This document shows, piece after piece, positions 20,255 to 51,406 of a stretch of 52,639 nucleotides of DNA. The position numbers and the translations under genes were made by a program. Below the pieces are notes generated by a model. That model did not search any database, was not told the origin of the DNA, and worked only from the letters and a program-made list of their open reading frames with translations. Positions within the stretch are counted from its first letter, which is position 1. Every line of letters starts with the position of its first letter. Source of the stretch: Clostridia bacterium (GTDB lineage: Bacteria > Bacillota > Clostridia > Christensenellales > Borkfalkiaceae); the NCBI GenBank assembly GCA_017463145.1, contig JAFTPR010000014.1:1-52639 (forward strand), written 5' to 3'.

Positions 20255-20335
20255 ACCGTTCTCCAATGGTTTCTTTATACCCAAAAACGGTATACCCCCG
20301 TTTGGAAGTATACTTTTACCTATCTGTTCTTATTC

Positions 20336-28654: not shown

Positions 28655-29536
28655 ATGAATTACAGATATCTCTTTATTAAAAATTATCTTAACAAACCTG
28701 TAAAATACGGAAATGTATTTCTGTATCAAATCGGAACAGCTTACCTCGAAGCCAATACCGTAATCCCCTCGCATAACCATCTCAACTTTTTTGAGCTGAC
28801 CGTAGCCACCAAAGGCAAAGGTGTTATTACCACCAACGGCATTGACTCTCCCGTACAGGCAAATGATATTTATTTGTCTTTCCCTTCGGAAAATCATAAA
28901 ATCCGTTCAGACAAAGACGACCCTATCCAATACGACTTTTTTGCGTTTTCCACTGATGACGAAAGAATGAGCGCAGAATTAAACAAAATTGCCATCATAA
29001 ATCAGCACCCGGAAAAACGGATTATTCACAACGAGGTATTAAAGTTTTTAATGCCTGTAATAATTTCCGAGTGCAGTCAAATTAATCCCTATCAAACGGA
29101 ATATTTAAACGCACTTTTTGTTCAAGTCCTCGTACTTACCATTCGCATGTTCAACGAACAAAACACAAAATCCGTACGTCCTACACAAAACGAGGAGTTT
29201 TGCTATCAAATTATGGCATATATAAATGCGCACATTTATACATTAAATTCCTTACAAGAGCTTTCTGCTCATTTCAATTACGATTATTCGTACATTTCCA
29301 ATATCTTCACAAAGACAACCAAACAAACTCTTTCCGATTATTTTCGCTTCAAGCGGTTAGAACAGGGACGAATTCTTATCCATGAAAATACTTTACCTCT
29401 CACAAAAATTGCGGAGCTTTTGAATTATTCCTCTATCTATTCTTTTTCCAAATCATTCAAGCAGCAATATGGTATGTCCCCGAGAAACTATAAACAAAAA
29501 TTTATTAACAAAAACAACAATATTGAACCGTTTTAA
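28655..29536 (+). CDS. AraC-family transcriptional regulator
   Basis: A 293-residue DNA-binding regulator. The N-terminal half (about 20-150) is a cupin-like sensing domain (VIPSHNHLNFFELTVATKGKG…DIYLSFPSENHKI). The C-terminal 100 residues are a complete two-helix-turn-helix AraC domain (NSLQELSAHFNYDYSYISNIFTK, then IAELLNYSSIYSFSKSFKQQYGMSPRNYKQ). The start is placed at ATG 28655 because an AAGGGGGG ribosome site precedes it and the promoter lies within the 58-codon upstream extension. The effector and targets are not evident; no permease or enzyme is adjacent in the same direction. Confidence 0.93.
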   Translation: MNYRYLFIKNYLNKPVKYGNVFLYQIGTAYLEANTVIPSHNHLNFFELTVATKGKGVITTNGIDSPVQANDIYLSFPSENHKIRSDKDDPIQYDFFAFSTDDERMSAELNKIAIINQHPEKRIIHNEVLKFLMPVIISECSQINPYQTEYLNALFVQVLVLTIRMFNEQNTKSVRPTQNEEFCYQIMAYINAHIYTLNSLQELSAHFNYDYSYISNIFTKTTKQTLSDYFRFKRLEQGRILIHENTLPLTKIAELLNYSSIYSFSKSFKQQYGMSPRNYKQKFINKNNNIEPF

Positions 29537-29835
29537 CTGCAACAAACAATCTTCTTTTTAATAATTAAATACAAGATAAATAACCGTCTTTTTTAGATCT
29601 ACTCACAATGTTATATATACATTGTTTACCAAAGCGATTTTCTTTTATTTTTCGCTCAAAAGATGGCATAGATATATTATCATACTTTGGTGTTTGCGCA
29701 TTGTCGAATTTTAAGTTACCATTTCAGCGCATAACCCTCTACGTTTTGAAATAACCGCTCTAAATTACAACATTTTGCCTAACTTTTGATTGCATAATTA
29801 TTTATTTTTAATGGTTTATGCAGAATTTAATAAAT
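29537..29835. other. AT-rich gap without a gene
   Basis: About 300 bp downstream of the AraC gene. I see no ORF with a ribosome site, no convincing promoter and no strong hairpin until the bidirectional terminator at 29836. Confidence 0.6.
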
Positions 29836-29870
29836 AAAAAAGACGAGATTTATTCAATCTCGTCTTTTTT
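29836..29870. terminator. Bidirectional terminator
   Basis: AAAAAAGACGAGAT / ATCTCGTCTTTTTT with a 7-nt loop. It ends the plus-strand AraC transcript and the minus-strand transcript of the giant lipoprotein. Confidence 0.85.
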
Positions 29871-29972
29871 ATGCACGTGAGCTTTTTTTATGAGTGCAAG
29901 ATGTCTTTCACTCATAAAATAGTTGACATTTGGCAATTCTCTTGCACATTCTTTAAAAATTTTTCCACTTTT
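29850..29972 (-). pseudogene. Possible gene remnant or small ORF
   Basis: Behind the giant lipoprotein stop codon, the minus strand has a 40-codon open stretch with a natural-looking protein sequence: KSGKIFKECARELPNVNYF followed by MSERHLALIKKAHVHKKDEI. The last codons and the TAA lie inside the terminator hairpin. An ATG at 29915 would give 21 residues; removing one A from the A6 run near 29975 would join it to an upstream ATG (MYVKSGKIF…). No ribosome site is convincing. It could be a decayed 3' gene end or chance. Confidence 0.25.
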
Positions 29973-30003
29973 TTACATACATTCTCGACCGATACTTTAT
30001 GCG

Positions 30004-33000
30004 TCATGCGCCGAGATATTCAATCGTAACCGTACAATTACAACCTCTCTCAATCAACAGCGCGTACGTTTCTCCTGCCGTCAATTCCACTGCAAACCCG
30101 AAATTGAGATTGTCGTTAGAATCGTCATCTCGAGCAATATTGTTTCCGTTGCTATCATAGAGATAGCCGTAAGGATCTCCGCCGTTTTCCTCTGCTCTCG
30201 TCGAATAGAAGCGGTATTCCCCCGATTGAGTCGCCGTGAAGGTGAAATATTTTTGAGTCTCCCAACTGTTTTCCTTAACGGGAGTTATCGTTTCCGTCTG
30301 CGATTGTACAGCAACGCTACTAACAACGTTCTGTTTACATTGACAACCCGTGTAAATCGTTTCGGCTTCTACCCACGTATAATAATAGCTATGCGCAATA
30401 CTTTGCGTTTTGCACACGACTTCAAACGTACCGTCGCCGTTTTGATCCCAACAATCTATCTGGTATTGCACGCAATTTACAGACGCTACCTTTTGCACAA
30501 AAATCAAGCCACAATCCTCGCAGGTATACGTGGTTACGTCATACGAGATTCCGTCGATTTCTTCCGCCGACACGGAAGCACTCCAATTACAGGATACATA
30601 ACGCATGTCTTTCACTTTGCCGCAAAACGAACAGGTTTTCCACGTCGCATACGACCCGCAGGCGTTCGCCGCCTGCGTCGTCGTTTCAAAGTAATGAGAA
30701 TCAAGCGTGATCGCATAATCGAACGTGCTTGCGTCGGTGGGGATAAAGTTCACACGCACCATATATTCGCACGTATTCAAGCCGTTCGCCGCCGCAAGTT
30801 CTTGCACCGAAGCCATAGAGAATCTCACAAAGGATACGCCGTCGTTACTAATCGTAAGCGCGTTCAGATCGCCGAGCGCCGCGTTGTAAAGGGTGATTGG
30901 CTCTTCCAAACCGTCCGCAATCAATTCAATCACGAGCGTATAAACGAACGCTGCATCCTTGATCTGATAACCGACTACGTAATTTTCGCCGTCGCCGTAA
31001 TTTTCGTGCGAGGTGAGGTCTTCTAACTCCACAACGCCGTCCGCGCCCGTGAAGTTTTCAAGCCCGCAATATCTGCAAACGTATCTTCCGTCGTTATAGC
31101 TACTATACGAGTGCCCATACGGAGAATGCGTTTCCTCGTCCACGTCCAAGCACCATACGCAGGTATTCTTCGAAACGCCGTATTGCGTGCACGAGCGAGC
31201 CTTCGTCCAACCCGAATGTACGTAATACGTCCAATACCCATAATGACTATGCGCGTTGGTATATCGATTTTCTTCACAGTTGCTATTGGTAAACGTTAAC
31301 TCCTCCGTACAATATGTTTCAGGATACGCATACGCGTATTTTTCCCAAGAGGTTACGCTGCCGTTTTCGTCGAAATACGTATATTCCGTCGCCAAACGCA
31401 CGGACATAGAATACGTGTTGCCGTTAAAGATAGTCGATACGTTTTGTTGCGCGTAATAATTCCTTTGACGCACGTTCGATTGTCCATAATAATAGTCGTA
31501 TTGTTCAGAATACCAAGCAATCGAATCGTCCGCATTCAGATACGATTTATACGTATACGTGTAATCGTGATAATCGCAATATTGGCAAATGTAATCCCAC
31601 TTGGTTACGTTCACCGTGTAATCGCCGTCTTTTTCCGTCGTGCGCGTTTCGTTTTCCGCTAGCGTATAGTGATTGACGTTATGCGTATTATAACTCCAAG
31701 CCACCGTGTAGGTATTGCCGTCCACACCGAACACGTATTGTTCGTGATGAATTTGCTCGCAGGTCGTGCTACGCGTCCACCAAGTTCTGTACGTATACGT
31801 AAATTCGCACGTTACGGGATCGGTTACCGCGCAAACGTAGGTATATTCGTAAATATCGAACTCGCCCGTCGCCTCGTTGTGTCCTTTATAGCCACCGCTT
31901 TGTTCCAACATACCGTTTACATCAAGGTCCACTTTCTTTCCCGCGCCGCAGGGACAAACGTAGACCTTTGCCGTGCCGCCGCAAACTGCGCCGTAATTGC
32001 TCAGCTCAATCACCTCTACGGGCTCGTAGATATAATATTCGTGATAGCTCGTCGCGGCATAGTGATAATAGATGTACGTTGTTTCTCCGCACATCAGACA
32101 GAATTCAAGCCTGTTAATACCGTCCGAGCACGAATCGCTGCCGTTTGAAAGCGCATAGGTATACGCCGTATGGCTATGGTTTTGATATTCTCCTTCCGAA
32201 CGGTTGTTGTTTTGATCGGTGTAAATTACCGTAGCGTGGCAGTAATCTTCGCCCTCATACACGTAGTCGGATCTATTCCAGCTCGTGCACGTTTCCGTTT
32301 CGTCATAATAATACGTACTTTCCGAAAGCACATACGGATAGATCTTGCCCTTAAAGTCGTACGAGCCGTATGTTATCACGTTTTTAGAGCTCAAACGGTA
32401 GCCATAATCGTCTGCGTCGATTGCAAACGAAACGTACTGTCTATATTCATACGAAACGCGTGTGCCGTTTGCGTCGTAGGTGTTCACGCTCACGTTCTTT
32501 TGAAACGAAGCAAAGCACTTTTCGCAGTAATATTCCTGCGCGTACGTTTCCACAGCCCCAATCACGGTGCCGTTATCATCCGTCGTTTCTTCTCTGCCCG
32601 ATTCGTCGATCAACTCTTTCCAAGCAGACGAGTGTTGTTTTTCGCCCGTATACCATTCTGCGTGATAAGTCGTAGCATCGCCCTCACTCGGATAGACCGT
32701 TACCGTCGTGTAATAAATCTGTTGACAGGTATCGTCCGTCTTATACCCGTACTCCGCGCAGAAACCATAGCCGCAATCTACGCATATTTCTACGTTGTCT
32801 TCTTGCTTAAACGTCTCACACGCACGATTTACGTCGTACGCCGCGCGTTCACCGCAAGGACAGCTATAAGAGAGTAGTTCACTTCCGCACGAACCAATCT
32901 TTATCGATTCCACGTTGTATTCGTGCGAATAATAAGCTTTTGCACTTTCCTCGATTACCGCAGAGCATATCGCGCAGATAATCTTTTTATCCAAGCCGTC

Positions 33001-34833
33001 TTCACACGTTACGCTACCCTCCGAAAGACTGTAAACGGATTTCGTATGCCCGTGGTACTCAAATAATTCGGTATAACCTTCGTAGTCAGAACCCGTAATA
33101 TACACCGTACCTTCACAATAGCTTCCGTCTGCATAGGTATATTCCAATTTGCGCCAACTCGTCATGCCATTGCCGTTTAACTGCTCAGTATAGTAGCTCA
33201 ATCTATATTCAAACGCTTCGCCGTTCACTTCCGTAACACCGTAAACAGTTTGTTCCCAATCTCTGCAAACGAGTTCGGTGCTACCCGTCTCCGTTTCGAT
33301 ACTCCACCGCTCGAAAATTTCTTCGTGCGTGTGCTTGGTTTCGTTAATGATGTCCGTGTATACCCAACGAGCCGTAACCTTGCCGCAAAGTGCGCAATAA
33401 TTTTCTTCCGTCCGCACGAAAATCTGCGTTTCGTTGCCGTCCGCGTCCAGACCCGTTGTTTCTTCATTATTCACGCGGTAATACGTTTCGTTATGCGAAA
33501 CGAAAATATATTCGCGCGTCTGATAATTTGTGCCCGAATGGATGCGCACACCCTCGCAGAAATAAGCGTCCGTATATCTATACTCGTTGCGCTCGAACCA
33601 CGTTACGTTTCCGTTCTCGTCGTAGTTCTCGCTTAACGTATAGAGCGTATAATGACGGGTTATGTCATTGTCAAGCTTACACGTGCCGTAAGCATAAACA
33701 CGCTTTGCGTACAACGAATAGGTATACGTGCCGTCGTCCTGTTCGATCGGGGTATAATACGCGTATTCATTATACAATTCCATGCCGTCTGCCGTGCATT
33801 TGACAACGTTAACCGATCTTTCAAAAATCTTGCCGCAAACCTCGCAGAAACGTTCACGCACCTGCGTCCGTACGGTAATGACGTTTCCGTTATCATCCGT
33901 TTCTGTTGTTTCACCGCTCAAATCTTCGATAAGGCGAGTATTTTCGGTATGCGAAATATACCCCGTTTTCTTCTCGAACAGATAATTGGTGATCGTCCAT
34001 TCGTCCGCATTCGCATTTTCAAGGAAATAATATCCCCTATAATGAATTTCTTGGCAATTCTCGTCCGCACGGGCGAAATCAGCGTAGCACCAACCAAAGC
34101 CACATTCCGTACAGCAAGAGAACCAACCGTATTCTTCTACGTATTTTTCATACATAGACTGGCAGTTGGGCGCAAAGTTCGTGAATCTCTTTTCACCGCG
34201 CACCGTTTCCACCGTCATTGTACCGCCGCAACCCGAGCCGAATGCGCCGAACGCCACTTCCTGCGGCTTAGGCAATACGTTCAGATAAATATCGCAAGTC
34301 GTATAATTTCTGCCGATTGCAATATAATACGTTTCTCCTGCAATAAGCTCGCTAGTAAGGTAGAAGTTCAAATCGTTATAATCATCTTGATAGCACAATT
34401 GATTATAGTTCGCGTCGTAAACGTAGATATTAGGGTCTTCCGTGTAGTTTTCCGACCAGAATTCGTAAGTCGCCGTTTGACTGGGCACGAATTTAAGTTG
34501 GAGATACGATTCGTTCAAGTCTTTGATGGATGCGAATTCCACGTTCTCATTTTCGCCGAGCACGAGCGTAAACGCTTTCGCGTTTCCGTCGCCAATCAGG
34601 TTTTCACCGCAGACCTTACAAACGCTCTTTCGAGAAATATCGTTGCCGATTCTCGTGTATGTCGTTTCCATAACGTGGCCGTAATATCCGCCCCAACGAT
34701 TGATTTCCTTGCCGCAATCCAAGCAAACTTCTATATGGTCTAAACCTTCTTCGCAGCTGGTTGCATTTTCACTCAGTTGATACCTGGTTTCTGTTCTTCT
34801 GTGATAATTAAACGTTTCTCCGCCGTTTTCGCC
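30004..34833 (-). pseudogene. In-frame 3' part of the giant lipoprotein after an internal stop
   Basis: This 1,609-codon open frame directly continues the reading frame of the lipoprotein gene at 34834-43539; only one TAA separates them. The first residues (GENGGETFNYHRRTETRYQL) complete the repeat unit interrupted by the stop. There is no ribosome site near the first usable start (TTG 34722), so independent translation is unlikely. Content: Cys-containing repeats of the SLSEGSVTCEDGLDKKIICAICS type, two PPC-like beta sandwiches (near the start, and the last ~90 residues ending GETYALLIERGCNCTVTIEY), and no C-terminal anchor. It is either an untranslated remnant, expressed only by readthrough, or part of an intact gene if the stop is an assembly error. 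Confidence 0.75.
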
Positions 34834-37800
34834 TTATTGATTTTCGTAAGTAATGTTGCCTACGCAATAACTATCCTCATACGTATACGTTTTCCTCGTC
34901 CACGCTCTTTCACCGTTTTCTTGCAGCCACTCCTCGTATTGGTAAATCGGATAAAGCCTCTTTTCGCCGTCTGCGGCAATATACGCGCCATACAACTCTT
35001 CTCTGACATGCGTAGCGTCACCATAGCCGTTTTCCGTCCACAAGTATTGCTCGTCTTTTCTATACAATACGTCGCCGTCCACGTCCGTTTTGATCGTTGT
35101 AACGCGCTTGCCTAAAATTAAGCCGCATTTTTCGCAATAGAATTCCACCAGAACCGTTTCCACAGTCAAGCCGTTCTCTTGCGCTTGCGTTCTGTCAAGC
35201 TCGCGTTCAACTCTTTCGTGAATCTTTTCGTTACGGTTGAACTCCACCGTATATTCCACGTAATTCTCATACGCGTTATCGATATTGAGGTTGGTTACGT
35301 ACACGGTATAATAACCCGTCGCGTTACAATCCTCGTCCGTGGTAGAGCCTTCTTTTGTTCTCCAAGCAAAGCCGCAATCATAGCAAACGTACCATTCGTT
35401 ATCGTCTTCGTCCGCAATACAACCCGATTTTTCCCCTTCTTTCACTCTGTATTCCGCTTTGCTTCCGCAAGGGCAGACGTATAATCCAAGCGTATGATCG
35501 CCACAGGTCGCGAAAGCGGAAATATCAATCATTTCCTTCGCCGTTTGATTGAGAATATGCTCCTTTTCGTATTTTTGACAAGTGTTGATGACCTCTCCGC
35601 ACAACCCGCAGCTTTCAATACGATCCAAGCCGTCGGTACAAAGCGTGCTACCCGCAGAAAGCGCGTAGTTGACTACCGTACTTGCGTGCGAAACGTATTC
35701 TTCCGTGCGTTCTTTGCCGTTTATTGTCGTATATCTTCTCTGCGCATGGCAATAATCGCCGTCTTCGTAGAAATATTCGTATTGCGACCAATAGAAAAGC
35801 TCGCCGCTGCGGTCATACTGCTCGGTACGTTCAAGCGTCTTCAAAGAGAAAGTATCGCCGTTTACCGTAACGTAGACGTTTTCATAAATCTCCTTGTATT
35901 CGGGCAGGAGTACGCAAGTACCATCTTCTGCCCAAACACCGTAATATCTCCCTCTTTCTACACGAACAGTGTCGCCGTTTTCGTCTACAAATCGTTTAAT
36001 TTCGTCTTTGAAAAGGATTAGCCCACACTCGTAACAATAACGCATTTCGTATTCTGTATAGAGCGTGTAGACCTTACCCGTTTTTTCATCAACGTATTCC
36101 GATCTTTCGCCGTTGTGCTCCCAATCCGATTGATGCTTTTGATTGCCCGTTTCGTCGATATATTCGACCGTGTGCGTTACAAGCGTTTCCGCCGTTACGT
36201 CCTCAATGAATACGTAACGCAAAACGTGCATTTCCGCGCATTGCTCGTTGCTTTCGTAAATATCGTCGCATCTGTAACCGAAGTTACAGTTCACGCAATA
36301 ATAAGTGCCGTCTTCCAATTGTTTGAAGTGGCATTCCGTCGTTTCAAAATCAACCGTGTAATGGACGCCTTGCCGCACCTCGATAATCAACGTACCTTTA
36401 CCGCATTCCATGCCGTAATCGGTGAGATCAATCTCGATATTATCCGGTTTAAGACAAATCGTCAAATCACCGTAAGCGTCGTAACCGTAAGCATAGACGT
36501 AATACGTTTCACCCGCTTCCAAATTAAACGCTCGATAGAAATTGCCGCTAGTACCCGTGCCGCCATTAGGGTCTTCAAAATAGAAACGGAAATCGTTTGT
36601 CGTCTTTTTCGCGCAGAATTCGTATTCACCCGATTTCGTAGGTTGAAGCACGAGCGTAAGACATCCTTTGCCAAATCTGTCATTCGTCGCGCCGAGCGTT
36701 ACTTTCACTTCCTCGTCAACGGTAAGTGTACCTACCGTTTCCGCTGCACCCTGCGTTTCGCCGCACACGGTACAAGCCGAGCCACGTATTACGTTACCGT
36801 TCTCAATTTGATAAGCAATTTGATAAACGTGTCCTTCCGTCCAATTTTCAATCACGTCTACCGTTTGCTTACAAACCTTACAAATGCGGTGCAGATCAAC
36901 GCCATCCTCACAGCTTTCCGAGCCTTCGGAAAGCACGTATTTCTCTACGACGTTGTGAACCTTTCGCGAATACGAGCCCTTTTCAAAGCCACATTCGGTG
37001 CAATAATAATGCGAATAGCTTTCCGCCGAGCAATCGTTTTGGTACGATTTTTCTTCGTCTAACACGAACTTGTGCGCCGTACTATTGCTAAATTTGCCCG
37101 CCACGGGATTATAATAGAAGCTCGCGCCATTCGTTGTATGGCAACTCCACCAACTTTCAGGAATCGTACCATCCATCGAAGGATTTTGCATAGATTGATC
37201 CACGAGCGCGTACTGTAACAGCGTACCGTCTTTATCGTACATAAAGCATTCGTAGTAATATACGTAGCGATTTTCGATCGGTTGCGTAAGCACAAGTGAA
37301 TAATTATACCAATCGCCACAATCGCTCGAAACTGACCAAGCCATTACACTTTCCATGGGTATCACGTATTTTGTGAGATATACGCGATACATTTCCATAT
37401 ATTGCCCGCTTTCCGCGTCTTTTTGCTCCCGCTCGAGCGTGCGTTCTTCCATCTGTACGGTAAGCACACCCTCCACGACAGGCAATTCTTTTAAATTCGT
37501 CCATTTCGTGAGCAAATCGGTCCACGTGAGTACTACTTCGCCATTCGGAATAATGTCCAAATCAAGCGCAATACGAAGATCGTCGCCGTCCACTCCAATT
37601 TCCAAGCTGTCGATAGACAGGGCAAGCGAGGTCAATTTACCCGCCTTATCCGTACCCACGCGAATATCGAGAACTTTCTCCACTTCTGCAATCACGTTAT
37701 CAATCGAAGTTTTCAGTTCATCCACGCAATCCGCGTAAAGCAAATCCCCGTAAACTTTCATTTCGGAAATCCCCGAAATCGACGCAAGGATATTCGCCGC

Positions 37801-40800
37801 AAAATCAGGTTGCTGGGTCATTGCACCGAGATATTCTACAACCGGCATACCCGTTAAATCTTCGGAGGTGAACAGCTCTTCAACGTCAAATTCGCCGTCT
37901 GCGCCCGACATCTTCGCCAAATCGTTAATCGTCTTGACGAGCAAGCCCTTGTCAAATCCGAGCGAATCCGCATAATCAAGCAATCCGCCCATTTCCGTTG
38001 CCAAAAGCTCTTCCGCGAACGCGTAAACGCCGTCGTACATGCCCTCACCGAAATAGTGATCCACAAGTTCTTTCACCGACATCTCCGCAAGATTTTCATT
38101 TAACTCGTAAACCTTTGCGTAATCGAGCGCGAGCACGTAGCCGTCCGCAGTCTTTTCTCTCGTAAACAGAATGCTCATCGCATCGTTTACGAACTTATTC
38201 ATTTCACCCTCATTGCTGTCTATGTAACTCTTCAAAAGAGGCAGAACGTCCGTTTCCACAAGACCTACGACCGCTTCCAACATTTCCTTGGGCATGCCTA
38301 TTTGCCTAAGCAGATCGTCGATCGTCGCCGAAACGTAATATTCTTGCGTATACAACGTCGCCGCAAGGGAGATTTCGCCCTTTTCAATGATCGCGTTAAA
38401 CGTGCAATCTTGCTCGCCGAGCATACCGTTTTCCACGACGAATTTACCATACGCAGCACCTTCGAGTTCGCCCGTTTCCTTGTTCGTGCCGAGCATAATC
38501 TTGGCAATATCGATTTGTTTCAAGCTAAACTTGGAAAGCAAGCTCGAATTTCCTTCTTCGTCAAGCTGAACGCCACTAAGAGAAACGGAAATATTTTCAA
38601 GCTCGATTGCAACGCTTTCCACATCTTTCCAGCTTTCGATAAGTTCCAACCAGAATCTGTCGGCTATTTTACCGCAAGTTTCGCAAACGCCTTTTTCGTC
38701 GTATGCGTGCCCGAGTTTATTCGCGTTCACAACCTTTTTAATCTCGCCGCACTTGCATTGATAAATATTATAGCCGTTGTTTTCGCAATCCGCTTCCGTC
38801 GCACCAACAAGCTTATATTTATGCTCACCGAGCTTCTTATTGTCACGGCGCGTATGCTCGTCGCAATGCTTACAGCCGTAGAGAATGTATCCCGCTGTTT
38901 CACAATCGGAATTCACGTCCTCCACGATATATTCTTCGTGACGCATATCCGTTTCGTCGTCGTGCTTACTTGAACCGCAATCAGGGCAATGGTATTCCGT
39001 GTAACCCTTATGCTTACAGGTGGGCGCAATCACGTTACCCTTTTGGTATGCGTGTTCTTTCATAGGCTTTTCGTCGCGGTTTTCCGTATGCATACAAATC
39101 GCGCAACGGTATACCGTATGCCCTTTATGCGTACAGGTGGGATCGACCTTGCCGTGTTCCTTATAATCGTGTTTACACTTCTCGTCGCAGTTGCGGCAAC
39201 GTCCGTTCGATTGCATATCGTGTCCGTGCGCTCTGCCGTCTACTACGCCGCAGTCCTTACATTTTTTATCTTCTATACAGGTCGGTTCTTCTACCGTCCA
39301 ATCGTGTCCCGTCGCCGCGTCCCCCGCGATCACTTGGAATACTACATTGCAAAGCTCGCAGTAACGCTCAGTATAGCCCGCCGCCGTACAGGTCGCAGGG
39401 AACACGCGATCTTTCATTTCATGCGACAAGGGCGCAATGAACGCGGATGTTACCGTGTCGCCACATTCTGTACACGTCTTGGTCGTGAAGCCGTAAGAAG
39501 TACAGGTAGGATCGGTGGTTACGCTCTCATACGCGTGTTCAAGCACAGGCAGAATCACCGTGTAAGCACTATCGCAAGAGTCACATTCAAATGTGTGTTT
39601 GCCCATCGCTTCGCAGCTCGCCGCCACATTCTCCGTTTGTGTCCACGTATGCCCCGTAGCTTTTTCTACCGTTTCAAAGTAGATATCGCAACGCAAACAA
39701 TACGTCTTTTCATAACTATCTGCCGTACACGTTGCCGTGCGCTTGGTCGCTTCGTCCACCTTCCAATCGTGTCCGAGCGCATCATATTCTTGATCAACTA
39801 CGCGATACGCGCAACGCGAGCAAACGCGTGAATCGTAGCCCTCCTCCAAGCAAGTCGCGGGCTTGTTGACTTCCACAAAATTATGTCCGTACAATTCGCA
39901 ACGTTTCGCAGGAGGCGTCGCCGTTACGGTATAATAGGAGAAGTGGTTGGTGGTGAACACCGCATAGCCTTCCATTACGCCGTCGTCGTTCGTATCCAAT
40001 TCGATATACGTCGCTTTGATCCATTCCAAGCTCGTGCCGCTGATATAACAGATCGCAATCTCTTCAGGGTCTTCTCCCGTTTCAAGGGTATAGGGAATAC
40101 GCACGGTTACGCCCGCATTGTTACCAAAATTAGAAATATTTTCGTCGCCTACCGACAAGGTCAAATTGAAGATTGCCGTTACGTCCGTTGCGCTTTCGCC
40201 CAACCACCCCAAGGCTTCCTCAAGATCATCTCCCGAAAGCGTATCTGCCGAAAGTTTAACTTGTTCATCTCCTTGTGCTTTCTCATTGATCGTCTGTTTT
40301 GCCGTATCATCAAGCGTGATCGTTGCGTTTTTCAACTCAACTTCGCCCGTTTCTTGGAGCTTGGAATTATCCACCGACGCATTCGTTTCGTTCTTTGCCG
40401 CAAGCGTCGTTTTCGTGTGCGCGGAATTGTACGCACAGGTATATACCGTAGTAACCCCATCCGAATTCAACACGCCCTCGTTCCACTTATGTACGTCCGC
40501 TTTTTCGTCAGCGTCGAAATTCTCTGTCGCTACGTGCCCACAGTCTTCGTTTTGACAAGTGAACGTCTTTTCACCCTGCGCTACGCAAGTCGCGTGGCGA
40601 GTGATCGTCATTTTATAATTGTGTTCTACGTATTTATCTGAATATTTATAAACGGTGTTTTGACAGGTATCACAGGTCGCGCTTTGCACGTCAATATACG
40701 TACAAGCCTCGCCAATTACAGCCTGCTTCTCCTTTTCCGACCAATCACCTACAACCGTGTGTCCTTTCTTCGTATAACCGTCGGGAACTTCCGTTTGCGT

Positions 40801-43539
40801 ATTGCCACATCCGCGCGCGCACTCATAAATGATATAACCGTCCGTTTCACACGTAGCGGGAACGTTTTCTTTCACAGTCGTGAACAGGTGTCCTTTCGCC
40901 GCTTCACCGTCCGCTTCGCAAGCCTTACAAACTTGCGCAATAAGGCAGGTCGCTTCCTCAACGTTCCAATCGTGTCCGTGCGCAACGAGTACTTCTTTGC
41001 TCTCTTCTTCGCAAACGGAACACTTGTTCAAAACGTAGCCCGCTTCCGTACACGTCGCCGCCACGGTTGTTTCTTCCCAATGGTGACCTTCACTTTCAAT
41101 GATATTTTCTTTATACGAATATCCACAATCCGCATTTTGACAGGTGTGCTGTGTATAACCGTCCGTTTCACAATCGACTGCCACCGTCGTTGTTTGATAA
41201 TTATGCTCCGTCTTTTCGATTGTTTCCGTTTTAATAATCTTACCGCAAGTTTCTACCGAGCAATACGTTTCGCTTACGCCCGTTTCCACGCAGGTTGCAG
41301 CTTTCTTAACGCGCGTAGCCGTCGTATGTCCTGTCGCAGCTACAACGTTCGTTTTTTCCGTGCCGCCGCAAACACCACAGCTATTCAGCGTATAGCCGTC
41401 CGTCTCGCAGGTCGCCGCCGTAACCACGGGATCGCCCCACGTATGCCCTAATGCATCAATTGTTTCCACGTATACGTAATCGCAAGCTCCGCAGGTCGTC
41501 GTTTTTGCGCCCGCGTGCGTACAAGTAGCCGCCGTAACGCTCGTTGTAAGTGCCGTGTGAGCCGCTTCGATCACGATGTTTTCGAGTGCAATTTCCGTCG
41601 CAGCAGTTTCGTCGGAGAAGTATTTTTCGCAACACAAGCACTGATAATGCGCTTCGTAGCCGTTTTCCGTACACGTCGCGTTCTTTTGCGCATAACGGGT
41701 GAGCTTGTGCACCGCAGGCACGATTGTATCTTGAAGCGTCGTTTCTTCTACGCCGTTTTTATCCGAATACAGCTTGCCACAAACGCTACACGTCCAATAT
41801 TCTTTGTTGCCGTCTTCCGTGCAAGTAGCCGCGACGGCATCCGTCTTGTTAAGCGTATGCGACGCGGGCAAAACGGTGTCCGCTTTGTTAAGCTCTTCTC
41901 CGCACGTTTCGTCCGCGTAATATTTTTTACACGCGCTACACTGGTAATATTCGATATTTCCTTGCGTGGTACAACTCGCCGCAACCGCTTCCGTTTTCAC
42001 GGGCTTATGCGCTTTGGCAATCACCGTATCTGCCTTTACGATCCCCGTGGTAGCATTTTCATCCGCATAGTACTTATTGCATACGCCACACGTCCAATAT
42101 TCTTTGTTGCCGTCTTCCGTACACGTCGCCGCGACTGCATCCACCTTCGTCAGCTGGTGCGAAGCCTTAATCACGGTATCGGCAAGCGCAATCTCCGTTT
42201 CTGCGTTCTCGTCGCTAAAATACTTATCACAAGCCGAGCAAGCCCAATGCTCGATATTGCCGTTTACCGTGCACGTTTTATCTTTCGCAACAACGTGCGT
42301 CAGCTTATGCTCCGCTTGAATGACGGTTTGCGCTTGCGAAATCTCCGTTTCTGCGTTCTCGTCGCTAAAATACTTATCACAAGCCGAGCAATACCAATAT
42401 TCGATATTGCCGTTTGCCGTGCACGTTTTATCTTTCGCAACAACGTGCGTAAGCTTATGCGCCGCTTGAATGACGGTTTGCGCCTGCGAAATCTCCGTTT
42501 CTGCTTTTGCGTCGGAGAAATATTTTTCACAAGCAGAGCAATACCAATATTCAATATTGCCGTTTGCCGTGCACGTCGCCACTTTTGCCGCAGTATACGC
42601 CAACGTATGCGTAGCGGAAATTACCGTGTCTGCAACGTTGACCGCGTGTTTACATTCCGCGTCGGAGAAATACTTCTTGCAACCACCGCAATACCAATAT
42701 TCGACGTTACCGTCCTCCGTACACGTCGCTTCTTTTGCGGGCGTTTTCACGGGCACATGGGTGTGTCCGAGCGGAGAAATAGTTTCTTCTTTCGTTTCCG
42801 TACAAACCGTACAGGTATAGAGCATTACGCCTTCGGTATATTCCCCCGCAGGCGTTTTGACTGCACCGTCATTCCAATCGTGCTTTCCGCTCTCCGTTTT
42901 ATCACCGCAAACACATTCTTTCCAATGGTTTACCGTATCGTGCTTCCAAGCCTTAGAATAATCGTGCGGAAGTTTTTCAACGGATCTTTCTTCCACGTGG
43001 GTGGTATCGGTTGCGCAAACACGCTTTTCTAAACCGCCCTTCGTGCAGGTAGGTGTTTCGGTTACTTCCCACGCGCCGAAAGTATGATTTTTCGCCGCCA
43101 CCTCACGCTTTTCAGCTTCACCACATTCACAAACACGAGTTTCCTCGCCCTTTAAAGTACATGTAGGCGCAGTAGTAAGCTCCCAAGGACCGAACGTGTG
43201 TCCTGTTGCTACCACTTCACGCTTTTCAGCTTCACCACATTCACAAACGCGAGTTTCCTCGCCCTTTACCGTACATGTAGGCGCAGTAGTAAGTTCCCAA
43301 GCCCCGAACGTGTGTCCCGTCGCCGCTATCTTGCGCGTTTCGGACTCGTCGCAAACGGTACATATACGGGTCTGCGTGCCCGTTTCCAAGCAAGTCGCTT
43401 CCTCCGTTATTGTCCATTCGCCATAGGTATGCCCGTCAGCGCAGTTGTTTCCGTCGTCGCAAGCGGTCAATGAAACGCCGCAAAACGCCGTCGCCAGTAA
43501 GCAGAGCAACCCAACGATAAAGTTCCTTTTTCCTTTCAT
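34834..43539 (-). CDS. Giant Cys-rich repeat lipoprotein, ended by an internal in-frame stop
   Basis: A surface lipoprotein of 2,901 residues, or 4,510 codons with the downstream frame. ATG 43539 follows CGGAGGG. The signal peptide ends in LTAC (lipidated Cys27). Residues about 30-930 and 1250-1620 are tandem Cys/His units (ATC…C-x2-C…GH; variants with C-E-C and EYWYCSACDKYFSD). Between them (about 1010-1250) is a beta-rich domain ending in the hydrophobic stretch AVFTTNHFSYYTVTAT. Residues about 1625-2080 form a non-repetitive alpha/beta region that I do not recognise. A PPC-like sandwich (about 2270-2350) and further Cys repeats follow. The TAA at 34834-34836 lies in the middle of a repeat unit. 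Confidence 0.85.
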   Translation of the reverse strand: MKGKRNFIVGLLCLLATAFCGVSLTACDDGNNCADGHTYGEWTITEEATCLETGTQTRICTVCDESETRKIAATGHTFGAWELTTAPTCTVKGEETRVCECGEAEKREVVATGHTFGPWELTTAPTCTLKGEETRVCECGEAEKREVAAKNHTFGAWEVTETPTCTKGGLEKRVCATDTTHVEERSVEKLPHDYSKAWKHDTVNHWKECVCGDKTESGKHDWNDGAVKTPAGEYTEGVMLYTCTVCTETKEETISPLGHTHVPVKTPAKEATCTEDGNVEYWYCGGCKKYFSDAECKHAVNVADTVISATHTLAYTAAKVATCTANGNIEYWYCSACEKYFSDAKAETEISQAQTVIQAAHKLTHVVAKDKTCTANGNIEYWYCSACDKYFSDENAETEISQAQTVIQAEHKLTHVVAKDKTCTVNGNIEHWACSACDKYFSDENAETEIALADTVIKASHQLTKVDAVAATCTEDGNKEYWTCGVCNKYYADENATTGIVKADTVIAKAHKPVKTEAVAASCTTQGNIEYYQCSACKKYYADETCGEELNKADTVLPASHTLNKTDAVAATCTEDGNKEYWTCSVCGKLYSDKNGVEETTLQDTIVPAVHKLTRYAQKNATCTENGYEAHYQCLCCEKYFSDETAATEIALENIVIEAAHTALTTSVTAATCTHAGAKTTTCGACDYVYVETIDALGHTWGDPVVTAATCETDGYTLNSCGVCGGTEKTNVVAATGHTTATRVKKAATCVETGVSETYCSVETCGKIIKTETIEKTEHNYQTTTVAVDCETDGYTQHTCQNADCGYSYKENIIESEGHHWEETTVAATCTEAGYVLNKCSVCEEESKEVLVAHGHDWNVEEATCLIAQVCKACEADGEAAKGHLFTTVKENVPATCETDGYIIYECARGCGNTQTEVPDGYTKKGHTVVGDWSEKEKQAVIGEACTYIDVQSATCDTCQNTVYKYSDKYVEHNYKMTITRHATCVAQGEKTFTCQNEDCGHVATENFDADEKADVHKWNEGVLNSDGVTTVYTCAYNSAHTKTTLAAKNETNASVDNSKLQETGEVELKNATITLDDTAKQTINEKAQGDEQVKLSADTLSGDDLEEALGWLGESATDVTAIFNLTLSVGDENISNFGNNAGVTVRIPYTLETGEDPEEIAICYISGTSLEWIKATYIELDTNDDGVMEGYAVFTTNHFSYYTVTATPPAKRCELYGHNFVEVNKPATCLEEGYDSRVCSRCAYRVVDQEYDALGHDWKVDEATKRTATCTADSYEKTYCLRCDIYFETVEKATGHTWTQTENVAASCEAMGKHTFECDSCDSAYTVILPVLEHAYESVTTDPTCTSYGFTTKTCTECGDTVTSAFIAPLSHEMKDRVFPATCTAAGYTERYCELCNVVFQVIAGDAATGHDWTVEEPTCIEDKKCKDCGVVDGRAHGHDMQSNGRCRNCDEKCKHDYKEHGKVDPTCTHKGHTVYRCAICMHTENRDEKPMKEHAYQKGNVIAPTCKHKGYTEYHCPDCGSSKHDDETDMRHEEYIVEDVNSDCETAGYILYGCKHCDEHTRRDNKKLGEHKYKLVGATEADCENNGYNIYQCKCGEIKKVVNANKLGHAYDEKGVCETCGKIADRFWLELIESWKDVESVAIELENISVSLSGVQLDEEGNSSLLSKFSLKQIDIAKIMLGTNKETGELEGAAYGKFVVENGMLGEQDCTFNAIIEKGEISLAATLYTQEYYVSATIDDLLRQIGMPKEMLEAVVGLVETDVLPLLKSYIDSNEGEMNKFVNDAMSILFTREKTADGYVLALDYAKVYELNENLAEMSVKELVDHYFGEGMYDGVYAFAEELLATEMGGLLDYADSLGFDKGLLVKTINDLAKMSGADGEFDVEELFTSEDLTGMPVVEYLGAMTQQPDFAANILASISGISEMKVYGDLLYADCVDELKTSIDNVIAEVEKVLDIRVGTDKAGKLTSLALSIDSLEIGVDGDDLRIALDLDIIPNGEVVLTWTDLLTKWTNLKELPVVEGVLTVQMEERTLEREQKDAESGQYMEMYRVYLTKYVIPMESVMAWSVSSDCGDWYNYSLVLTQPIENRYVYYYECFMYDKDGTLLQYALVDQSMQNPSMDGTIPESWWSCHTTNGASFYYNPVAGKFSNSTAHKFVLDEEKSYQNDCSAESYSHYYCTECGFEKGSYSRKVHNVVEKYVLSEGSESCEDGVDLHRICKVCKQTVDVIENWTEGHVYQIAYQIENGNVIRGSACTVCGETQGAAETVGTLTVDEEVKVTLGATNDRFGKGCLTLVLQPTKSGEYEFCAKKTTNDFRFYFEDPNGGTGTSGNFYRAFNLEAGETYYVYAYGYDAYGDLTICLKPDNIEIDLTDYGMECGKGTLIIEVRQGVHYTVDFETTECHFKQLEDGTYYCVNCNFGYRCDDIYESNEQCAEMHVLRYVFIEDVTAETLVTHTVEYIDETGNQKHQSDWEHNGERSEYVDEKTGKVYTLYTEYEMRYCYECGLILFKDEIKRFVDENGDTVRVERGRYYGVWAEDGTCVLLPEYKEIYENVYVTVNGDTFSLKTLERTEQYDRSGELFYWSQYEYFYEDGDYCHAQRRYTTINGKERTEEYVSHASTVVNYALSAGSTLCTDGLDRIESCGLCGEVINTCQKYEKEHILNQTAKEMIDISAFATCGDHTLGLYVCPCGSKAEYRVKEGEKSGCIADEDDNEWYVCYDCGFAWRTKEGSTTDEDCNATGYYTVYVTNLNIDNAYENYVEYTVEFNRNEKIHERVERELDRTQAQENGLTVETVLVEFYCEKCGLILGKRVTTIKTDVDGDVLYRKDEQYLWTENGYGDATHVREELYGAYIAADGEKRLYPIYQYEEWLQENGERAWTRKTYTYEDSYCVGNITYENQ
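42190..42540 (-). repeat. 150-bp near-identical tandem repeats in the lipoprotein gene
   Basis: The 50-codon YWYCSACDKYFSD unit recurs with about 50 bp of identical DNA (42190-42240 and 42340-42390) and a more diverged third copy near 42490-42540. Recombination between copies would change length in frame. Confidence 0.8.
43103..43330 (-). repeat. 114-bp near-identical tandem repeats in the lipoprotein gene
   Basis: Two adjacent 38-codon units share almost all bases (TCACGCTTTTCAGCTTCACC at 43103 and 43217). They encode the GHTFG(A/P)WELTTAPTC repeat at the exposed N-terminus. Confidence 0.8.
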
Positions 43540-43575
43540 AACACCCTCCGTGTCATTTTATTCCCTTTATAAAAC

Positions 43576-43606
43576 AAAAAAACGGCGCATGCAAACGCAA
43601 GCGTCG
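43576..43606 (-). terminator. Terminator-like hairpin in the lipoprotein leader
   Basis: On the minus strand CGACGC…GCGCCG with an inner TGC/GCA stem, followed by seven T, lies between the promoter and the start codon, 37 bp before ATG 43539. As an intrinsic terminator inside a leader it suggests attenuation. The leader upstream (about 105 nt) also has the small stem CGAAG…CTTCG. I do not recognise a riboswitch class. Confidence 0.6.
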
Positions 43607-43717
43607 GGGGTCGAAGTTTTCCGCTTCGGCTCTTACAAGTTTACGTCTGATTTGATATTATAACGTCGTTTTGTTTATACAGCCAAAATCGCAAAACTGC
43701 GCGTTTTTACATTTTCT

Positions 43718-43746
43718 ATTTTAGCACATCTCTCCACTTATGTCAA
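43718..43746 (-). promoter_or_regulatory. Promoter of the giant lipoprotein gene
   Basis: Minus-strand TTGACA (43741-43746), 17-bp spacer, TAAAAT (43718-43723), giving a leader of about 170 nt. A weaker second candidate (TTGGCT, 18 bp, TATAAT at 43657-43662) lies downstream. Confidence 0.78.
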
Positions 43747-43827
43747 ATAGATTTCGATATTTTTTACATGATATATTATATGTAATAATTTCAAAATATA
43801 GCGAGTGCTTTGTTAAAATATACAAAA

Positions 43828-43867
43828 ATGCAGAAATTTAGCGCTTTTATACACAAAATTCCTGCAT
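43828..43867 (-). terminator. Terminator of the ADP-ribosylglycohydrolase gene
   Basis: Minus-strand ATGCAGGAATTT / AAATTTCTGCAT stem of 12 positions (one G-T) with a 16-nt loop, followed by TTTTTG. It lies about 120 bp after the stop codon. The remaining gap (43747-43984) holds nothing else that I can support. Confidence 0.65.
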
Positions 43868-43984
43868 ATCGTCTTTCACACACAAAATAGCTGTCGTCAC
43901 TTAATAATAATTTCTTGCAAAAACGCTGTTTGCTGTTCAATATTGTTGTTTAAGCAAAAAATAATATAATGTGAGCTTCGCCAA

Positions 43985-45439
43985 TCAGCCTATCATAACA
44001 ATCGGAATAAGCACGGGATAAGGCATTGTAGGACACGTAACCTCCACATAAACACGATTAACTATCTCCATTCTCTCACCTACCGTTACGGTAAAAGACG
44101 TGCTTGCCGTTCCGAATAAACCATGCGCCGGTTGCGCGTATAACAGCGACACCGTTTTATCGTATGGACCTACACTCCAACTTTCAGGTAAAATCAAACG
44201 CATTTGCAATTTACGGGATTCTGCCACTTTCGGATTACAGAAAAATGTCAAGGTTACGTGGCGCTCATCCCCACTACCCACGCGCGGGGTTTTATCTAAC
44301 TCCACTCTCGTATTAAATGCATGATAATTCGTAATATCGTAAGAATACGGTGAACGGTTAAACAACTCTGGCGCTTTTATCTTATCATATTCTGCTATCG
44401 TATCCTCGCAAACATTCCCCTCACCTTCAACAAGCGAAAACGGAATGGAGTTTTCCTTCATAACAGCGGGCACAAGCGCCGCTATACGCTCTGTAAGTTC
44501 GGTACAAGTCTTAGGAATACGACCCGAATACATACCATTGATGAAAAGTGTAACAATTCCATCACCAATAAAGTCTTTCCAATCCTGCGGAATTGCACCC
44601 GTTCCGCCTATAATTCCAAGCGTTGCGCCTACGGTAGCCGCAGTGCAGTCCGTATCGTCGCCACAATTAACGGCATACAGCACGGATTTACGGAAATCCC
44701 CTTCCCCATAAAGAAGACCTATCGTAACGAAACCAAGATTATTGGGGGCTTGAAACCAACCAAGCGCGGAGTTAAACTCCACAACTTTTTCCCGCGCTTC
44801 TTTGTAGCTCACTCCGTTGTCGTAACAGTCCATTACCATCCGAACGGTTTTTGCTATCATGGAATCCGTCGGGATTTTTGAAAGGGCAATTTCCAACAAT
44901 TTGCGGATATCTTTTTCCACGTAAGCGGCACTTTGCAAAGTGACGGTAAAAACTTCGGCGTATGTTCCCTCGCTTAAACCGTGATCCACCATTGCATCCG
45001 CCATGGCATATTTTATGGCAACATCTACTACACCCGGCGCAAGACCTGCCCAGATTTCACTGCGTATCCATGCTCCATTGGAAGTTTTCCATTTTTCATT
45101 GTCAATCTCTCCGCTCATTGGCGGCAAAAGTCCTAAACGCAAATTCGTTTTTGCTATCCCATACTCGTTGCAATGCGGCGGTATCCAATCGAGCCAATAC
45201 TCGCTAAGCGCGTTTGCATCCAAATATCCAGGTCCAAGCTCTTCCATAGCGGCAAGCCATATAAGCTGTAAGTCGAGATCGTCGTTGGGAATCGGTTCGC
45301 CTTTTTTTGAAGTAAATCCTTCCAAATTCAAACAAGAACGAGAACCTTCAAACGGTGCGCCCAATGTACCGCCTATATTCTTTCCGAGCCAGCAAGCGTG
45401 GAGTTTATCCAAATATAGCTTGCTATTCATTGTAATCAT
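43985..45439 (-). CDS. ADP-ribosylglycohydrolase family protein
   Basis: A 484-residue hydrolase of the DraG-like fold, which removes ADP-ribose or related N-glycosidic groups from proteins or small molecules. The metal-ligand motifs are present: LGAPFEG…PNDDLDLQL (Asp53, Asp54, Asp56) and VNCGDDTDCTAATVGATLG (near 260), followed by IPQDWK. The C-terminal ~110 residues (from about RVELDKTPRVG) form a separate beta-rich domain ending in VEVTCPTMPYPVLI, an addition seen in carbohydrate-linked members. ATG 45439 is chosen because GAGGG lies 8 nt upstream; the upstream GTG overlaps that site. It is divergent from the AraC gene at 45553, which may control it. The substrate is unknown. Confidence 0.88.
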   Translation of the reverse strand: MITMNSKLYLDKLHACWLGKNIGGTLGAPFEGSRSCLNLEGFTSKKGEPIPNDDLDLQLIWLAAMEELGPGYLDANALSEYWLDWIPPHCNEYGIAKTNLRLGLLPPMSGEIDNEKWKTSNGAWIRSEIWAGLAPGVVDVAIKYAMADAMVDHGLSEGTYAEVFTVTLQSAAYVEKDIRKLLEIALSKIPTDSMIAKTVRMVMDCYDNGVSYKEAREKVVEFNSALGWFQAPNNLGFVTIGLLYGEGDFRKSVLYAVNCGDDTDCTAATVGATLGIIGGTGAIPQDWKDFIGDGIVTLFINGMYSGRIPKTCTELTERIAALVPAVMKENSIPFSLVEGEGNVCEDTIAEYDKIKAPELFNRSPYSYDITNYHAFNTRVELDKTPRVGSGDERHVTLTFFCNPKVAESRKLQMRLILPESWSVGPYDKTVSLLYAQPAHGLFGTASTSFTVTVGERMEIVNRVYVEVTCPTMPYPVLIPIVMIG

Positions 45440-45470
45440 ATAAATTTCCCTCACTTTTTTATTTTTTCAC

Positions 45471-50045: not shown

Positions 50046-51371
50046 TTATTCCGCCTTCAAAATCCAAATCGCCTCACCCGGCATTAAACAAAGCTCTACG
50101 CGGTTATTCTCCACGGGAATCTCCATTTTATCCCCCGAGCACAATGCTGTGAGCCTCTTCGTTTCGTTTGCAAAAGCCAACGAAACCCGATTGACGACCT
50201 TTTCCGCTGAATCCCGTGCGTTCATAATCATATACGCAACGTTCCCGTCTTTATTTAATTTATTGACCAACACGGGCGCGTCTACGCGATAATTTGCAAA
50301 CAAGCCAAGGTCTTTTTCTATCAAACAAAGCGTTGCTTCGTTCCCCTTGCCGTCCTTCGTCAAAAGTTGCGAAGCCTCGTAATCGTATTCGTAAACGTGC
50401 TCTGCCAGCTTTTGCATATACGCGTTTGTACGCTGTACTTCGTCGTAGATCATTCGTGTTCCGTCGTCATCCATAACGGCGGTTGCTTCGCTTGCAAGAT
50501 TTTTACGAGTAGTGAACCGCCAATAGGTGTACCAATACACTTTTCTTACACCAAACCCAAGAAATAAATTCGCCTGCCAAAGCAAATCGTGCTCGTCAAC
50601 AGGTCTTGTTGCATCCTCATAGGCTTGACCGTACGTCTGCCCCGTAATCCAAAATGGCAAATGTATTCTTTGCGCCGTCCAAGCAGCTTCCTGCATAACG
50701 CGAAAATGCGCCTTGGTAAGGTCATATTTTCCATACCACTTATTAAATGGATATCGATCGTAATGCACGTACCCCACAGGTTTGCTCAACTTTTCCAAAT
50801 ACCCGGAAAAAGAAGCAAAGTCGTCCTCATATCCCTCGCCAAAACTTCTTACGCAATATTCGTGCTCGTGCATATACGGCAACAAACAGGTATGTATCGT
50901 CGCCGTCGGGCAGGCGGTTTTGATTGCAATCGCAATCTCCTCCAGCGCGCCTTGTTTGGAATAAATCGGCTCGTCGATAATCGAAACACCTTGAAAGGCT
51001 TGGTGTTCTTTATAATCTTTCATACAGTCGGCAACAAATGCATTCAAAGCCTCCTGCGTATCGAAAAGCTCTCCTACGATATTATATTTTGCGTTTACCG
51101 TGAGCGAAAGGATACGCTCGTCGTAAACGATTGCTTTCAAATCCGTTTTTAAGGCAAGATTCATCAATTGTTCTGTTTTACTTCCGATAAAGTCCTCGCC
51201 TGTATATCTATCTTCGCCCGCGATAAGCAATTCATCAAATCCACACTCACGGTATTCGCGGTAACGCTCTTCCGTTTGGAAGGATTGTCCCAACCACTCC
51301 GTTTCTTTCTTTCCCGTTTCAAAGAACGTTCTGTACCCGTTGGGAGGGGGCGTGTACGCGCTTACCGACAA
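50046..51371 (-). CDS. TIM-barrel glycosidase-like protein, start frame broken by A8 tract
   Basis: A 441-residue open frame resembling a cytoplasmic TIM-barrel glycoside hydrolase: early strand SVSAYTPPPNGYRTF, barrel strands ending GVSIIDEP (candidate acid/base Glu), HTCLLPYMHEHEYC, GYVHYDRYPF, PFWITGQTYGQ and VYWYTYWRF. A C-terminal beta-sandwich ends GEAIWILKAE. The only in-frame start is TTG 51371, without a ribosome site. A good AGGAG plus ATG sits at 51388, but its frame (MAKKIFCR, then stop) enters the gene only if the run of eight A (plus-strand T at 51376-51383) gains one or loses two bases, giving MAK(K)NILSVSAYTPPP. The family is not assigned beyond the fold. Confidence 0.7.
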   Translation of the reverse strand: MSVSAYTPPPNGYRTFFETGKKETEWLGQSFQTEERYREYRECGFDELLIAGEDRYTGEDFIGSKTEQLMNLALKTDLKAIVYDERILSLTVNAKYNIVGELFDTQEALNAFVADCMKDYKEHQAFQGVSIIDEPIYSKQGALEEIAIAIKTACPTATIHTCLLPYMHEHEYCVRSFGEGYEDDFASFSGYLEKLSKPVGYVHYDRYPFNKWYGKYDLTKAHFRVMQEAAWTAQRIHLPFWITGQTYGQAYEDATRPVDEHDLLWQANLFLGFGVRKVYWYTYWRFTTRKNLASEATAVMDDDGTRMIYDEVQRTNAYMQKLAEHVYEYDYEASQLLTKDGKGNEATLCLIEKDLGLFANYRVDAPVLVNKLNKDGNVAYMIMNARDSAEKVVNRVSLAFANETKRLTALCSGDKMEIPVENNRVELCLMPGEAIWILKAE

Positions 51372-51406
51372 AATATTTTTTTTGCCATAGTTTTTCTCCT
51401 GTTTTT

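Follow-up and report, generated by a model that had tools for sequence, protein, structure and literature searches.

A single in-frame TAA splits a giant predicted surface-lipoprotein gene of a Clostridia bacterium, probably as a recent nonsense allele

One reading frame on the minus strand, extending from 43539 to 30007 and comprising 4,510 sense codons, is broken by a single TAA at 34834–34836. All coordinates refer to the window, the whole stretch of 52,639 bases that we analyzed, which is one complete contig of a draft genome (64 contigs totaling 1,435,840 bases; completeness 76%). We consider it probable, at roughly two chances in three, that, in the strain or population sampled, a giant surface-lipoprotein gene of ~4,510 codons very recently gained one nonsense codon. 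The two parts share a frame, start signals are lacking downstream of the stop, relatives carry the two parts unbroken, and the downstream codons are intact. The locus is most likely ordinary in biological terms, either a recent loss-of-function allele or a base error in the draft, with no new mode of decoding.

Results

One long frame interrupted by a single stop

The upstream part (P0001, 34837–43539, minus strand) has 2,901 codons, opens at the ATG at 43539, closes at the TAA at 34836–34834, and encodes a lipoprotein signal, Cys-rich CxxC repeats, and the start of larger repeat units. The downstream part (P0002, 30004–34833, minus strand) continues in the same frame with 1,609 codons and has no start near its 5′ end. 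Its codons are open from 34833 to 30007, and its terminal stop is a TGA at 30004–30006. The base directly after the TAA at 34834–34836 is a G. Codon-use scores in the downstream part are coding-like in frame (0.15–0.45 per 200 codons), whereas the other two frames score below zero; values on both sides of the TAA are similar. Translation of the locus confirms the preliminary description in its coordinates and arithmetic for a 4,510-codon frame split by one TAA, in the 1,609 open codons that follow in frame, and in the 37 codons that separate the TAA from the first later start, a TTG at 34720–34722 (minus strand) that forms codon 38. Mechanical calling of open reading frames at this locus yields two separate proteins, of 2,901 aa and 1,572 aa.

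The start of the gene is preceded by a Shine-Dalgarno sequence, GGAGG, at 43545–43549 (minus strand), 5 nt before the ATG. The TTG at codon 38 lacks such a sequence, and across the seven in-frame starts within the first 150 codons past the TAA Shine-Dalgarno matches do not exceed 3 nt, in agreement with the earlier statement that a ribosome site for re-initiation is missing. With the same scoring, eight of nine ordinary gene starts in the window have a match of 4–7 nt; the ninth scores 3 nt because its GGAG directly adjoins the start and so escapes the scored stretch. Reading the translation by eye, we saw no signal peptide where the downstream part begins. It is thus very improbable that the locus consists of two separate genes, the second translated from a start of its own. 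Start codons are present from codon 38 onward, but all seven candidates lack a Shine-Dalgarno sequence, the downstream product would have no visible signal peptide, and the start would fall within a repeat unit. We disfavor an internal start for these missing Shine-Dalgarno sequences and for the single-frame relatives described below.

The stop lies inside a diverged repeat unit

The N-terminal region of the split protein, read by eye from the translation, contains a signal sequence and the motif LTAC at residues 24–27 (43459–43470, minus strand), which we take to be a lipobox. The label "lipoprotein" is used because of these two features. Translation would begin at 43539, and the product would be exported and lipid-anchored via its N-terminus, which gives it a predicted location at the cell surface. 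The upstream part contains eight copies of a CxxC-type repeat spaced by 150 nt, or 50 residues (41609–42738, minus strand), in addition to further Cys-rich stretches. Larger and more diverged repeats begin at about residue 2,180, extend to the TAA, and then continue through much of the downstream part. No Pfam family reaches the cut-off for either part of the protein.

The split protein resembles two giant repeat-rich surface proteins encoded on the same strand in being long and repetitive and in having an export signal, as judged by eye. The larger neighbor (5081–20284, minus strand) occupies an unbroken frame of 5,067 codons and appears, from reading the translation, to place a subtilisin-type protease ahead of numerous leucine-rich and CxxC repeats, with a membrane segment at the C-terminus. 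Close to that terminus it carries CxxC repeats that match the split protein's own at 47% over 160 residues. The second neighbor, of 1,438 aa, is a BspA-type leucine-rich repeat protein, from which the split protein differs in having no Pfam family at the cut-off. Upstream of the lipoprotein gene, an ADP-ribosylglycohydrolase-family protein is encoded at 43985–45454 (minus strand). The region 29500–44500 also contains 37 sigma-70-like sites, both strands taken together, against a mean of 21.7 in shuffles (sd 5.1), and many of these matches lie on the strand opposite the lipoprotein gene.

The TAA sits inside a repeat unit. When both flanks of the TAA, joined by an X in place of the stop, were used as a BLAST query, five other places in the protein aligned through the stop column, and each of them has a sense codon there. 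One of these unbroken stretches lies upstream of the TAA (P0001 2370–2685, at 35485–36432) and four lie downstream, one at P0002 237–859 (32257–34125) and three at P0002 330–682, 620–1160, and 910–1278 (31000–33846), all on the minus strand. The count of five rests on BLAST; a MAFFT alignment of six units misplaced one of them, around P0002 437. These alignments within the protein bear out the earlier view that the stop interrupts a repeat whose flanks match intact units. Amino acid identity across the stop column is 22–26% in the five alignments, so the units are old and diverged. In a low-confidence structure model of an intact unit (mean pLDDT 49.4), which we do not rely on, the stop would correspond to about residue 94, in a turn between two strands. 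Switching by inversion or recombination was considered and set aside: the region 29500–44500 holds no inverted repeat pairs of at least 20 nt, and the most numerous direct-repeat families are found mainly at 39373–43398, away from the TAA.

Related loci join both parts in one frame

Within the genus, the downstream part finds matches in 9 of 57 genomes (E ≤ 1e-3) and the upstream part in 23 of 57 (E ≤ 1e-20), the genome itself counted in both. Fourteen stretches were fetched from 13 of these genomes, covering all eight other genomes that match the downstream part and 10 of the 22 others that match the upstream part. Both parts are matched in one unbroken frame (E < 1e-12) in five of the 14 stretches (L064, L065, L066, L067, and L073), and the remaining nine match one part only, or neither, at that threshold. 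A family-wide search matched 7 of 398 genomes (E ≤ 1e-15; own genome counted), and the five stretches taken from it (L118–L122) all have both parts in one unbroken frame. The total is thus 10 of 19 fetched relative loci. The frames of the five genus loci span 1,630 to 3,867 codons, which is also the range for the fetched relatives with both parts; those of L065 and L122 reach an end of the fetched stretch. None of the ten loci with both parts, all from other species, has a stop between the parts. Because 10 of 19 relative loci join the two parts in this way, the comparison supports the view that both belonged to one ancestral gene. The preliminary description had named relatives that all share the stop and a conserved downstream start as the sign of two genes, and no such relatives were seen among the fetched loci.

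The closest relatives, L118 and L119, come from another genus, have frames of 2,809 and 2,816 codons, and keep the order of the parts. In L118, upstream residues 575–2490 correspond to 166–2041 and downstream residues 704–1380 to 2135–2806. In L119, upstream residues 583–1525 and 1339–2618 correspond to 142–1063 and 756–2143, and downstream residues 694–1380 to 2113–2813; in both relatives other repeat matches overlap these placements. Compared with L118 and L119, the window gene has ~1,000 extra repeat residues between the two blocks, with the TAA within them, and ~230 extra C-terminal residues. The lipoprotein gene at 30007–43539 therefore appears, next to these two relatives, as a repeat expansion that contains the stop. 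The closest relatives lack the repeat stretch holding the TAA, and among the fetched loci none provides a counterpart of the stop position that is orthologous in the strict sense.

The downstream codons show no decay

The 1,609 downstream codons (4,827 bases) contain no second stop or frameshift. At assumed indel-to-substitution ratios of 0.03, 0.1, and 0.2, this limits neutral divergence since the stop arose to less than about 0.9%, 0.5%, and 0.3%, respectively. This intactness, with no second lesion, leaves three readings: a stop of very recent origin, a downstream part that still has a use, or a wrong base.

We measured constraint by the residues that five relatives share without variation; block limits in the relatives were set by hand, and each relative was compared with the other four as a control. 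The window protein keeps 56 of 73 such residues in a downstream block (P0002 881–1380), including 17 of 18 cysteines, and 79 of 97 in an upstream block (P0001 785–1376), including 20 of 21 cysteines. Relaxed constraint past the TAA is therefore not seen in this comparison of the two blocks. The control L120, with 74 of 98 residues kept in the downstream block and 99 of 131 in the upstream block, is close to the window protein. The other four controls keep more (downstream 74/86, 74/79, 74/76, and 74/75; upstream 99/104, 99/111, 99/103, and 99/102), which is expected given that these four make up two close pairs. A lesion that is very young, if real, is expected to leave constraint unchanged; the result fits such a lesion, but it would also fit a wrong base or continued use of the downstream part.

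In the nonsense allele that we favor, ribosomes would terminate at 34834, and the cell would display a 2,901-residue protein minus the distal 1,609 residues. The DNA downstream would no longer be translated, and too little time would have passed for it to decay.

Stop codons and decoding in the host

We sampled 452,639 bases of the genome, namely 20 stretches of 20 kb and the window. Among 199 closed long open reading frames in this sample, 141 end in TAA, 46 in TGA, and 12 in TAG. Two frames, of 359 and 387 codons, encode proteins with the release-factor domain. All 34 tRNA genes found (30 + 4) were examined with ARAGORN, which assigned a stop-codon anticodon to none of them; the genome is 76% complete, so a missing tRNA is possible. 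Reassignment of TAA to an amino acid in this host, which the preliminary description thought unlikely since other genes end in TAA, is the least probable of all the readings. We found no support for it, and within the sample it is rejected by the use of TAA as a terminator, by the absence of a TAA-reading tRNA among the 34, and by the two release-factor-domain proteins.

In the sample, 668 stops are flanked within their own frame by 60 or more open codons on each side, and we retained the 34 whose flanks both score as coding-like (>0.1), leaving out 634. For 33 of these 34, which we took as a group to be neighboring genes, the first later start falls between codons 2 and 24. Only at 34834 does it come later, at codon 38. 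The pattern at this TAA exceeds chance, being unique among the 34 coding-like sites in the sample.

Programmed or regulated readthrough of the TAA, with a major truncated form and a minor full-length form, appears improbable. Its appeal lies in the intact downstream frame with its conserved residues and in the G after the stop, which, in a study with E. coli reporters, lowers the accuracy of termination (PMC11126739). The same study reports TAA as the stop that is least read through (PMC11126739). A relative, L072 (G019:C84), has an in-frame TAA at 5154–5156 in a similar CxxC-repeat protein, though only ~45 bases from a contig end, and this stop is possibly a contig-edge error. Against readthrough, the 120 nt past the TAA show no RNA fold beyond that of shuffles (z 0.79; of 200 shuffles, 162 gave a fold as good or better), no suppressor tRNA is among the 34 found, the ten loci with both parts have no intervening stop, and the sample holds no second such site. 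Slightly less probable still is a kept switch, in which the TAA would yield mostly the 2,901-residue lipoprotein while a few readthroughs would add 1,609 residues, so that each cell would carry mixed short and long surface fibers. Three options had been put forward for this locus at the outset: a recent nonsense mutation and a base error both fit the evidence, and regulated readthrough finds no support, as the codon is TAA and neither a fold, nor a suppressor tRNA among the 34, nor a second site in the sample was found.

A real base or a draft error

The principal competitor of the nonsense allele is that the TAA is an error, made in the assembly or its consensus, or that the draft records a variant from a minority strain; the gene would then be intact in most cells. 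We regard this as unlikely but as a serious candidate; our figure for it, about one in five, is a judgment and was not computed. The genome is a draft in 64 contigs, and a single lesion followed by an otherwise perfect frame is the typical look of a wrong base. A second gene, at 50046–51371 (minus strand, 441-codon body), also appears to be lesioned, which somewhat raises the chance of an assembly error. Its ribosome site and ATG lie just upstream (51372–51400) and out of frame, with a run of eight A at this start, and in the relative L109 (G029) the ATG is in frame. This frame break may be a homopolymer error, a real frameshift, or slippage.

Other features of the assembly argue for a real base. 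The TAA at 34834–34836 is not within a homopolymer, and it is the sole such site in the 452,639-base sample. The sample contains 276 runs of exactly seven equal bases, 52 of exactly eight, and 9 longer ones; of these, 80, 10, and 0, respectively, are located deep within intact long open reading frames. Because seven- and eight-base runs sit inside intact frames, the assembly is not full of indels. A mix-up of repeat copies at the stop is unlikely because the units share only 22–26% amino acid identity across it. An assembly chimera at this position is likewise unlikely, since alignments to other units cross it and codon scores before and after it are similar. We take the base as probably real.

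Discussion

Belinky et al. 2021 (PMC7918605) describe in-frame stops in bacterial genes as widespread, with dN/dS below 1 around them. The gene described here resembles these in-frame stops and recent nonsense alleles in having a single in-frame stop within an otherwise constrained frame. It differs from them in being unusually long and in being known from one genome of its species. The likeness to low-level readthrough in E. coli (PMC11126739) consists of a sense frame that continues past the stop and a G that follows it. Unlike that system, nothing at the split gene indicates readthrough, and TAA is the most accurate stop there.

If the stop is real and kept in the population, the locus would be a case of length variation in a surface protein, which nothing here shows. 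The main relevance of the locus is for annotation: calling of open reading frames gives two proteins, whereas comparison points to one giant lipoprotein.
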